In this document: positions 3,830 to 15,228 of the stretch, piece by piece
How positions within the stretch are numbered: the stretch's first letter is position 1
Layout: the number at the start of each line of letters is the position of its first letter
From: Methanosarcina mazei S-6
GTDB lineage: Archaea; Halobacteriota; Methanosarcinia; Methanosarcinales; Methanosarcinaceae
Length of the DNA stretch: 64,000 bases
Reading direction: 5' to 3'
Assembly: GCF_000970205.1 (NCBI RefSeq)
Contig: NZ_CP009512.1
Location: forward strand, 3,782,001-3,846,000
Notes under the pieces: generated by a model
The model's input: only the letters and a program-made list of their open reading frames with translations
Databases searched by the model: none
What the model was told of the DNA's origin: nothing
Made by a program: the position numbers and the translations under genes

Positions 3830-4408
3830 TTACACTTTAGCCAGACCTCTCCAGAGAATCTGGAATCCATCTGCTATGATTTTGTTTTTATCCAGTGAAG
3901 AATCTGAATCAAGAATAAGGTTTACTACCTCCCTGCTGCCCTGATAAAACATTGCAATAACCAGCTCCGCAGGAAAATCTCTAACCTCTCCCGTTTTTAT
4001 CCCTTCATCCACAAAATTATGGAGGAAGACATATTCTTTCATCACTTCATCACGCGTAAATTTTGTTATGTAAGGAGAAGAGCAGAATTGTCCAACAAAA
4101 AGGAATTCTTCCTGATTGTTTACACCCCAATTGACTAAATTTGACCATATTCTTTTTAATTTATCCTGAAAGGTAGTCTCAGCTTCGAGACCTACCCCCA
4201 TAGAGTGGCCCAAGTTTCCTTTAACCTCAAAATAAAGGCTGTTTATAAGATCTTCCTTTGTGGGAAAGTAATTGAAAAGGGTGCCTGTGGCTACACCTGC
4301 GTTTTTTGAAATTTGAGCAGTGGACGTACCGTGGAAGCCTCTTTCAGTGAAGAGCTTCAGGGCAGCTCCCATAATTGCTGTTTTTTTGTCTTTGACATGT
4401 TCTTTCAT
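3830..4408 (-). CDS. TetR/AcrR-family transcriptional regulator
   Basis: 192 aa. The N-terminal helix-turn-helix (KTAIMGAALKLFTERGFHG, then AQISKNAGVATGTLFNYFPTKEDLI) is typical TetR. The rest is a ligand-binding domain with no recognisable ligand. It is followed by the aldo-keto reductase in the same direction. A perfect TGACT/AGTCA inverted repeat lies at its own promoter, so autorepression is likely. The start has only a weak Shine-Dalgarno (GAGATAG). Confidence 0.9.
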   Translation of the reverse strand: MKEHVKDKKTAIMGAALKLFTERGFHGTSTAQISKNAGVATGTLFNYFPTKEDLINSLYFEVKGNLGHSMGVGLEAETTFQDKLKRIWSNLVNWGVNNQEEFLFVGQFCSSPYITKFTRDEVMKEYVFLHNFVDEGIKTGEVRDFPAELVIAMFYQGSREVVNLILDSDSSLDKNKIIADGFQILWRGLAKV

Positions 4409-13053: not shown

Positions 13054-13842
13054 TTATACTTTCTTTATTTTTTCTGATCTATCCCTGTAGTAAGCAAAAA
13101 GGTCTTCTCCCCATTTAAGTGCAACAGGGTCAAAACACAGGACATCGCGCGTATGGTCAAAAGCGCCGTTAGAAAAAGGAAGACTCAAAGAGAGAAATTT
13201 ATCAGTGACAACATGAGAAAATTCTATTTTTTCCTCGCATACATATAAACAGGTGTTATCGAGGCTGAGAAATTCCCTTAATTCAGACCTGTATTCTCCT
13301 TTTATTCTCTCATAAACCGGAAGGGTCACAAGAAGAGTTACATCTGCTCCATTTTTCGCAAAAGAAAGGAAAAGGGAAGGGTAAAGAGGAAAAAAGATGG
13401 CGGAAATTCCTTTTATCTTTCTCGATACTGTAAGTTTTTCCACGAATTCCCTGTGAGGTTCAAAGAGGTGTGTCCAGTCAGGAGGTTCGGAAAAGATACA
13501 GTTCTCCAGATCTCCAATCCTGCTCTTTAAAGGAGAAGGCAAACACTCAACTGCATGGTCTGCCCAGTAATCGTAGTTCCTGGAAAAGACATTTAATACA
13601 CGCATCATCGCGTGCATTCTCTCAGCTACCGCTATGCCAAGAGGAGACAGAAAGTAAGAGTCTTCTGTCCTGAATACCAGAGAATCATCCCTTAATTTTT
13701 TAATCTGGGGAAGAATGGCTACAGCGCTCGTATCCAGATTTGTTTTTATTTCTTCTATATTTTTTGGCCCCTCTTTTAAAAATAAAAGAAGATTTTTCCT
13801 TTTTTCGGAGAGGAAAATCAATTCTAGAAGCGAGTTACTCAT
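13054..13842 (-). CDS. Winged-helix transcriptional regulator, methanogen type
   Basis: 262 aa. The N-terminal winged helix (LLELIFLSEKRKNLLLFLKE, then EEIKTNLDTSAVAILPQIKK) is followed by a roughly 170-residue C-terminal domain of the kind found in many Methanosarcina regulators (formerly DUF1724). Effector and targets are unknown. The gene precedes the isomerase gene in the same direction with about a 100 nt gap. Confidence 0.85.
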   Translation of the reverse strand: MSNSLLELIFLSEKRKNLLLFLKEGPKNIEEIKTNLDTSAVAILPQIKKLRDDSLVFRTEDSYFLSPLGIAVAERMHAMMRVLNVFSRNYDYWADHAVECLPSPLKSRIGDLENCIFSEPPDWTHLFEPHREFVEKLTVSRKIKGISAIFFPLYPSLFLSFAKNGADVTLLVTLPVYERIKGEYRSELREFLSLDNTCLYVCEEKIEFSHVVTDKFLSLSLPFSNGAFDHTRDVLCFDPVALKWGEDLFAYYRDRSEKIKKV

Positions 13843-14110
13843 GTCTATAAGAGATAAGTAAAGACTTGATAAGTATCTTTCGTATTATTCAACTATTTTT
13901 ATTCAAAAGCGTGAAACCAGATATGAAAATTTTTTTGGGATGTGAAGGTAAAAAAGTGGTAGACTATCAGGACAGAAAAGAATAAAGAATGAGAGATATT
14001 GCAGAGCAAAAATTAACCAAAACTGAAAATGCAAGAAGTTATTTGAGCCAGAGTAAGTGGATTTTGAGGCAGTGAAATAATTCAATGGGAAGTAAATTTT
14101 AAGGTCGTAT
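13843..14110. other. AT-rich intergenic, nothing recognised
   Basis: Between the regulator gene and the first small-RNA promoter I see no gene, hairpin or repeat that I can support. Confidence 0.5.
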
Positions 14111-14113
14111 AGG

Positions 14114-14120
14114 TTATATA
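14114..14120 (+). promoter_or_regulatory. TATA box of the first small RNA
   Basis: TTATATA lies 32 bases before the base of the first stem, the same geometry as at the second copy (TATA at 14645-14652, stem at 14678). Confidence 0.55.
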
Positions 14121-14141
14121 CCTCTATAACATAAAGAGGAA

Positions 14142-14270
14142 GTTGACGGTTAAGAGTTAAGGGGTTTTTCTCTTAATCGTAGGGGTTGAATCACACAATT
14201 GGGAGCCATATCAGAGGTGGCAAGCGGCTCCCAATTATAACACCACCGATCTTGGAGAACTTTTATCTTC
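14142..14270 (+). ncRNA. Candidate small RNA, copy 1 of a pair
   Basis: Two hairpins joined by a conserved linker. Hairpin 1 is an 11-bp stem, 14146-14156 with 14170-14180, with a 13-nt loop reading TTAAGGGGTTTTT. The linker at 14181-14193 contains GGGGTTGAATCA. Hairpin 2 has a perfect 11-bp stem, 14197-14207 (AATTGGGAGCC) with 14226-14236. A T-rich stretch follows near 14261. No open reading frame explains the region. The start is inferred from the TATA box; the end is uncertain. Confidence 0.7.
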
Positions 14271-14640
14271 CAGTATTCATCATTTTTCTATCATCCAATC
14301 ATAAAAAATATAAGAAATGGTGAAAATATAGCCCAATATATTTACATAGTTCAGTAAAGATTATAGAACTTATGAGAATTTACGGACTAAGAATTTTTTT
14401 GAATATAGTAGGAGATAAATAAAAAGTGTTCAGGACATATTGTTTAAAAAAAGAAAAACTGTTCATTTTGGATTTTTTAAGATTTATTTCATAAGAGAAA
14501 AGAAATAAATTAAGAGGTAATTTTGACTGGCTTGAAATTTTTAATGCTAACAAATAATTTAATAAAATAAGATATTTTAAACTCAGATAAAAAAATACAG
14601 TCATCTATAATTTGAGTATTAGCAAATATTTTATGACGTT
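14271..14640. other. AT-rich spacer between the small RNAs
   Basis: Very AT-rich. A minus-strand open frame of 74 codons (14380-14604) has low-complexity Phe/Leu/Ile/Lys content and no ribosome binding site, so I do not call a gene. Confidence 0.5.
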
Positions 14641-14644
14641 TATG

Positions 14645-14652
14645 TTATATAA
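14645..14652 (+). promoter_or_regulatory. TATA box of the second small RNA
   Basis: TTATATAA lies 33 bases before the first stem of the second small-RNA candidate. Confidence 0.55.
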
Positions 14653-14673
14653 CTAGAAATCATAAGAATTTGA

Positions 14674-14770
14674 TAGAGATTGAGAGTTAATGGGTTTCCT
14701 CTCAGTCCAATGGGGTTGGATCATCAGTAGGGACCTAGGAAAGGAAAATTCGGTCCCTATTTCCTTCTTA
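14674..14770 (+). ncRNA. Candidate small RNA, copy 2 of a pair
   Basis: Same architecture as the copy at 14142. Hairpin 1 is a 9-bp stem, 14678-14686 with 14699-14707, loop TTAATGGGTTTC. The linker at 14711-14722 reads TGGGGTTGGATC. Hairpin 2 is TAGGGACC (14728-14735) with GGTCCCTA (14752-14759), followed by a pyrimidine run (TTTCCTTCTT), a good terminator. Stem sequences differ from copy 1 but pairing is kept, while the loop and linker are conserved. Confidence 0.72.
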
Positions 14771-14850
14771 CAGAAATAAAATCAAACTTTTTTCCAGAGC
14801 AAATTCTTCCTGAGGACCTGATTTTTAAATTAATTTATATTTTGCTAATG

Positions 14851-15070
14851 AATTTACCTCTTTATGAATGAATTTACTTCTTTATGAATGAATTTACCTC
14901 TTTATAAATGAATTTACCTCTTTATAAATGAATTTACCTCTTTATAAATGAATTTACCTCTTTATAAATGAATTTACCTCTTTATAAATGAATTTACCTC
15001 TTTATAAATGAATTTACCTCTTTATAAATGAATTTACCTCTTTATAAATGAATTTACCTCTTTATAAATG
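14851..15070. repeat. Eleven 20-bp tandem repeats
   Basis: Units of AATTTACCTCTTTATAAATG start every 20 bases from 14851 to 15051. The first two differ slightly (TTTATGAATG, ACTTC); the rest are identical. Each unit holds a TATA-like TTTATAAAT. There are no spacers, so this is not CRISPR. It lies between the small RNAs and the FmdE-family gene. Confidence 0.95.
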
Positions 15071-15228
15071 AAGATTGATCAAATTGATTATCAGGATAAT
15101 CAACTGAAACTGTGATTTTTTGTTATTAGTTAATCTGTTCATCGAAGCTACACATCTTTAAAGAGACCGATAAAAATCGAGAGCGGATTAATACTCTGGA
15201 TTTTTTTTGTATTATCAATTAAATACAG

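Follow-up and report, generated by a model that had tools for sequence, protein, structure and literature searches.

Twin two-hairpin RNA genes of Methanosarcina mazei belong to a multicopy family with putative pairing sites in secreted-protein and flippase mRNAs

In the genome of Methanosarcina mazei S-6, two similar hairpin-forming elements lie one after the other within an intergenic region of 1.5 kb bordered by a FilR1-type regulator gene and an FmdE gene, which raises the question of whether they are small RNA genes, how far such genes extend beyond this locus and what their products might bind. The window analysed here is the whole stretch of 64,000 nucleotides (C1:3782001-3846000) taken from the source genome, a single contig of 4,142,816 bases. 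An initial annotation, made from the letters alone, had described twin loci with TATA box, stems, loops and linkers, all of which were located at the positions given below; the distance from the TATA box to the first stem was likewise reproduced, at 33 bases in copy 1 (14147) and 32 bases in copy 2 (14678). With the promoters counted in, the two regions are 75% identical.

13054-13842, minus strand: FilR1-type regulator gene (PF08350)
14102-14140, plus strand: copy 1 promoter block, with the TATA box TTATATA at 14114-14120 and a TTATGATATATA-like element; conserved in the genus (alignment of 29 orthologues)
14142-14246, plus strand: copy 1, putative small RNA gene of subtype A (R1 match, 109 bits); approximate extent, real ends unknown
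14147-14179, plus strand: copy 1 hairpin 1, stem 14147-14156/14170-14179, loop UUAAGGGGUUUUU
14182-14194, plus strand: copy 1 unpaired linker GGGGUUGAAUCAC, proposed mRNA-pairing segment, supported by column conservation and by the GATTCAACCC complement in nine flippase leaders
14197-14236, plus strand: copy 1 hairpin 2, stem 14197-14207/14226-14236, with invariant AUCAGAGGUGGC in the loop
14632-14665, plus strand: copy 2 promoter block, with the TATA box TTATATA at 14646-14652; recognised by likeness to copy 1 and the shared element
14674-14769, plus strand: copy 2, putative small RNA gene of subtype B (R1 match, 79 bits); approximate extent
14678-14707, plus strand: copy 2 hairpin 1, stem 14678-14686/14699-14707
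14712-14724, plus strand: copy 2 unpaired linker GGGGUUGGAUCAU, proposed mRNA-pairing segment, in which GGGUUGGAUC complements sites in flippase leaders and at secreted-protein starts
14726-14761, plus strand: copy 2 hairpin 2, stem 14726-14735/14752-14761, loop variable
From about 15316, plus strand: FmdE gene, downstream of both copies

Between copy 2 and the FmdE gene, a 20-bp unit (AATGAATTTACCTCTTTATA) is repeated in tandem at 14847-15072 (11.3 copies, 98% matches).

A multicopy family with its own promoter element

Judged by sequence comparison, both copies fall within a multicopy family of RNAs with two hairpins, one that is not catalogued in Rfam. The twin genes of the initial annotation are real, but their number was underestimated, with 1-13 genes per genome and five more in the source genome. 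The covariance-model search of relatives that the annotation had proposed was run and recovered the family in the genus and in a sister genus, with 1-13 members per genome in 30 of 31 Methanosarcina genomes and 8-10 in each of the four sister-genus genomes sampled, while among the 150 genomes sampled from the order the model detected no members outside these two genera. The Rfam check, also proposed there, gave no covariance-model match to either copy at the gathering score in Rfam 15 (best E 0.32, far below gathering). No tRNA-like identity was found.

By blastn, copy 1 was detected in 30 of the 31 genus genomes at 84-96% identity, the missing genome being 60% complete, and no match was obtained in any other genus. 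Almost all genomes of the genus have a single copy 1, and at a conserved position. An orthologue of copy 2 about 530 bp from copy 1 is present in 10 of the 31 genus genomes and in all four of the sister genus, and its occurrence at the corresponding place in the latter implies that the twin arrangement is older than Methanosarcina. The source genome possesses seven members, at C1:1748702, 1850397, 1850837, 1851190, 1908559, 3796144 (copy 1) and 3796674 (copy 2). The one at 1748702-1748794 (L331) is degenerate, with a good promoter element, an altered linker (GGGCUGGACCC) and poor pairing with the targets proposed below.

The 87 members gathered split mainly into three subtypes by their linker, which reads GGGGUUGAAUCAC in subtype A (copy 1), GGGGUUGGAUCAU in subtype B (copy 2) and GGGUUGGAUCGC in subtype C, the last of which also carries AAUAGGGA in the second loop. 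Loop 2 of copy 1 (14208-14223) carries AUCAGAGGUGGCAA, unchanged in almost every subtype A RNA; the GAGGUG within it could base-pair with the anti-Shine-Dalgarno of 16S rRNA (CACCUC), and a start codon at a usual distance is lacking downstream.

Of 86 members, 76 have a TTATGATATATA-like promoter element at a distance of 19-23 nt upstream; most of those without it are degenerate or form the second unit of a head-to-tail dimer. Being intergenic and, in these 76 of 86 cases, equipped with their own promoter element, the members behave as independent genes, as would be expected of trans-acting sRNAs that mask ribosome-binding sites (RBS). The neighbouring genes vary from member to member, including a decarboxylase, a 2-oxoacid:ferredoxin oxidoreductase, LysE, an RNA polymerase subunit and others, and such scattered loci with unrelated neighbours argue for action in trans. 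Transcription itself is inferred, no transcript data being at hand. Whether the FilR1-type methanogenesis regulator (PF08350, window 13054-13842), a divergent neighbour, acts on the shared promoter element is a question that the locus raises, without data to answer it.

C-type head-to-tail dimers with units 3-6 nt apart were observed at L074:4948-5133, L077:5477-5666, L079:4150-4336, L096:4342-4533 and L097:7444-7635; the lack of a separate promoter element for the second unit makes a dimeric transcript likely. Two diverged and possibly decaying relatives in the sister genus (L089:3878-3949 and 4122-4207) have kept hairpin 1 and the linker with a shortened hairpin 2.

Covarying stems

The fold of copy 1 is better than that of 200 out of 200 dinucleotide shuffles (z -3.2), whereas copy 2 alone is unremarkable on the same measure (z -0.7), so that the case for structure rests on comparison. 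The compensatory change from A-U to G-C in stem 1, which had been read from the two copies at the outset, is real, and stem 2 holds two further ones (U-A to A-U and G-C to C-G). Among 29 aligned members, 96.1% of the cells in the two hairpins are paired, a share that drops to 31-52% in slid controls, and two-sided changes fill 29 cells compared with 9.4 ± 2.3 after shuffling, a value of 29 being reached in none of 500 shuffles. RNAalifold applied to a MAFFT alignment returned the identical two helices.

Across all 87 members, 91.9% of the pair cells are paired and the two-sided cells number 190 versus 69 ± 13 in shuffles, with such changes in 11 of 11 pairs of helix 2 and 4 of 10 pairs of helix 1; this larger alignment was fitted to the covariance model and leans towards structure for that reason. 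Selection for structure in non-coding small RNAs, as the initial annotation had supposed, is supported by these covarying stems, and the finding that would have refuted it, namely relatives that do not keep the pairing, did not materialise. A third helix between the linker and the 3' tail appeared in many C-type folds and was discarded, since it is not conserved in A or B.

Complementary sites in flippase leaders and secreted-protein genes

The linker is unpaired and ranks among the best-conserved columns (GGGUU, G and AUC at 95-100%), with GGGUUG(G)AUC as its conserved core; a structure that leaves the pairing segment open in this way is another property anticipated for an RBS-masking sRNA. 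The earlier suggestion that the unpaired GGGGUU segments are suited to pairing with mRNAs has gained strongly supported candidate sites for the conserved linker, though no binding data. When the linker complement GATYCAACCC was searched in five genomes, its matches outside the RNAs converged in four of them on one orthologous place, the leader of a polysaccharide-synthesis-type flippase (PF01943). Together, 25 orthologous flippase leaders (800 nt) contain 125 sites that differ from ATCCAACCC at one position or none, about five per species, against 8.8 in dinucleotide shuffles (largest 18). An unbiased ranking of 8-mers in the same 25 leaders put ATCCAACC, GATCCAAC and CGATCCAA at the top, with CCTGCGAT and TGCGATCC also high, and the over-represented 8-mers jointly make up the reverse complement of the C-type GGUUGGAUCGCAGG.

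The longest perfect complement between a C-type RNA and the flippase leader measures 12-15 nt in most species and falls at the linker, and the A-specific site form GATTCAACCC is present in some leaders (nine). In 18 of the 25, one site, mostly AUCCAA[C/U]CC, stands directly before the AAGG (Shine-Dalgarno) of a leader ORF, where C-to-U changes preserve pairing via G-U. The leaders are C-rich and repetitive. Paralogous flippases (L318-L320) from genomes having the RNAs contain no site, and in the source genome the flippase is not located within a recognisable polysaccharide cluster. The leader ORF ahead of the flippase in that genome (L394:12117-12494; G000:C1:2241116) has about 126 codons and orthologues in related leaders.

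Several other matches were set aside. Those of the linker complement inside coding frames of single genomes are not common between species, viral matches of the linker pattern show no flanking likeness to the RNAs and were taken as chance, and the resemblance of the subtype B linker to the 16S rRNA 3' end (UGGAUCA) covers 7 nt only and is missing from subtype A.

A search for CAACCC near a Shine-Dalgarno sequence and an ATG led to a recurring start, CAACCCAAAGGUGAUACGAUG, usually after AUC or UC, in a family of secreted proteins with right-handed beta-helix or pectate-lyase domains, many of which bear the disaggregatase-related repeat PF06848. Among the matches listed in 12 genomes, a broader pattern (TCCAACCC, AGG, ATG) was encountered at 59 places, and its reversed control at 11. 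Of the 31 genus genomes, 25 contain the strict motif (TCCAACCCN{0,4}AAGGTGA), as do all four of the sister genus; it is present in none of 56 genomes of the family's other genera and in 2 of 59 genomes elsewhere in the order, where both places examined lie outside the secreted-protein gene family. In divergent secreted genes, the motif and the Shine-Dalgarno sequence are nearly invariant and the upstream 50 nt are more variable. Furthermore, 21 of the 87 RNAs read UUUGGGUUGGAUC, which is complementary to AUCCAACCCAAA, and their complementarity reaches into the Shine-Dalgarno sequence. The flippase and secreted genes are non-homologous and share the motif, at a corresponding place before the start.

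The three target starts of the source genome were ranked by cofold gain against 157 other start regions, which came from selected loci and not from the whole genome. With the C-type RNA at 1908559 they rank 1-2, with copy 2 they rank 1, 3 and 13, and with copy 1, whose pairing is weaker than that of copy 2 or C-type RNAs, they rank 6, 6 and 39. Complementarity to ribosome-binding regions is maintained across species, which is again what RBS masking would demand, with two exceptions: G005 (99% complete) has kept the secreted-protein site with a single RNA of subtype A as its only member, and G026, with its 11 RNAs, lacks a strict site. Because the secreted targets are paralogous, their motif is conserved in part through common descent, and such secreted genes may be absent altogether from genera that do not have the RNAs. 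About 140 bp ahead of many secreted target genes there is a mini-ORF of 28-46 codons with a matching leader and a similar truncated signal peptide (L325:1783-1866, L329:660-758, L281, L387).

A putative mechanism, its rivals and known systems

Family membership, structure, promoter element and linker conservation are established from sequence, as are the complementary sites and their position. On this footing we consider it likely that the members are trans-acting sRNAs of about 90-105 nt, the linker of which would pair with the RBS of secreted-protein mRNAs and of the flippase leader ORF and block translation. Each gene would yield a two-hairpin RNA from its own promoter, and the hairpins would keep the linker (GGGUUGGAUC(GC/AU) or GGGGUUGAAUCAC) open for pairing with AUCCAACCC-type sites adjoining or overlapping Shine-Dalgarno sequences. 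The predicted targets are the secreted beta-helix/disaggregatase-repeat mRNAs and the leader ORF ahead of the polysaccharide flippase, which lies in a long leader with an array of sites; pairing would keep the ribosome off and in this way adjust aggregation and the extracellular matrix. That the RNAs pair in the cell, that they repress and do not activate, and that aggregation is affected are inferences. RBS masking is documented in M. mazei for sRNA162 (PMC3510493), sRNA41 (PMC6560208) and, on one target, sRNA154 (PMC5867862), which we count in support of this reading.

A role in the matrix is plausible for the genes of both target classes. In M. mazei, disaggregatase brings about the change from aggregated to single cells, the methanochondroitin synthesis genes are unknown, and the control of disaggregatase or of methanochondroitin making has been unexplained so far (PMC12369344). 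The RNAs probably help to control how Methanosarcina cells coat themselves and clump, which would offer a handle on this switching; aggregation is relevant to digesters, virus resistance and stress survival. A further step, advanced only tentatively and with more doubt than confidence, is that the family may constitute a post-transcriptional matrix switch, in which the A, B and C linker variants would read the mixed sites of the flippase leader and the starts of matrix-degrading enzymes, and the set of sRNA genes would shape the balance between aggregated and single cells. Targets are known for only a few archaeal sRNAs, and a family of sibling genes spread across the genus, with a pairing segment that can be recognised, target classes of two unrelated kinds and a leader that bears an array of sites, represents a concrete model open to test.

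It remains conceivable, albeit unlikely, that the RNAs exist but have other mRNAs as their targets, and that the AUCCAACCC start motif is kept for a different reason, for example because it enhances translation or is bound by a protein in leaders that are paralogous and rich in repeats. The exceptions G005 and G026, the paralogy of the secreted targets and the repetitive leaders would all suit such a view, which is countered by the motif's equal pre-start place in two non-homologous gene classes and by the unbiased 8-mer ranking, which yields the linker complement including its CCUGCGAUCC end. Rather improbable in our judgement is the proposal that the RNAs are sponges for an RNA-binding protein, with several G-rich sites each and with the mRNA sites secondary. 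GGG does occur in loop 1, the linker and often loop 2, AAUAGGG appears twice in 43 of 87 members, and tandem dimers are found on one shared promoter; but loop 2 is not conserved between subtypes, and enrichment of the exact linker complement in leaders would not be expected of a sponge. The GGA loops of the bacterial CsrB/RsmZ RNAs bind CsrA, and the present RNAs resemble them in hairpins that show repeated G-rich unpaired motifs; they differ in that the linker has matching mRNA sites and no CsrA-type protein is expected, such regulators not being known in these archaea to our knowledge.

A cis-acting role of the elements, as structured leaders or attenuators for the adjacent gene, is very hard to sustain: the FmdE gene does lie downstream on the same strand, but the pair stops about 550 bp short of it with the tandem repeat between, the neighbours of other members are unrelated and in either orientation, and each has its own promoter element. 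Least credible is a non-autonomous mobile or repeat element without regulatory role, for which the dispersed copies, the tandem pairs and the proximity of one copy to a TnpB-like gene and of another to a transposase-like ORF could be cited, since positions are conserved across species, copy 1 above all being single and in place in nearly all genus genomes, and promoters are conserved, stems covary and the unpaired linker is invariant.

If the RNAs act as RBS-masking sRNAs, analogues can be recognised among the bacterial sibling sRNAs Qrr and LhrC and the outer-membrane-protein sRNAs MicA and RybB, with several sister genes per genome and surface-protein mRNAs repressed at the RBS; the present family is archaeal, bears no sequence relation to them and has one target leader with a site array. 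Within M. mazei, the first sRNAs analysed were single or duplicated genes (PMC3510493, PMC5867862, PMC6560208), and single members of the family may already be recorded among published transcripts. sRNA41 resembles the family in masking the RBS of several mRNAs; its described targets are the ACDS operons, and its identity with a member is not excluded. sRNA154 (PMC3177094, PMC5867862, PMC11549558) is likewise a conserved Methanosarcina sRNA, in which two hairpin loops pair with mRNAs and the RBS of glnA2 is masked, but it is a nitrogen-limitation RNA of 130 nt with the NrpR operator GGTA-N6-TACC; identity was rejected, as its published primers match neither the window nor the homologous loci and the operator is absent from the window. 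Similar in design are sRNA162 and its duplicate sRNA171 (PMC3510493), which are intergenic structured Methanosarcina sRNAs from a duplicated gene, with an unpaired linker between stem-loops that masks an RBS. They differ in their 191 nt, three stem-loops, 39-nt linker, location beside an ArsR-type regulator and targets, the MM2441 and MM2442 mRNAs. sRNA162 sits between the ArsR-type regulator gene and MM2442, whereas the RNAs described here have two hairpins, about 100 nt and FilR1-type and FmdE neighbours, so that the two are distinct.
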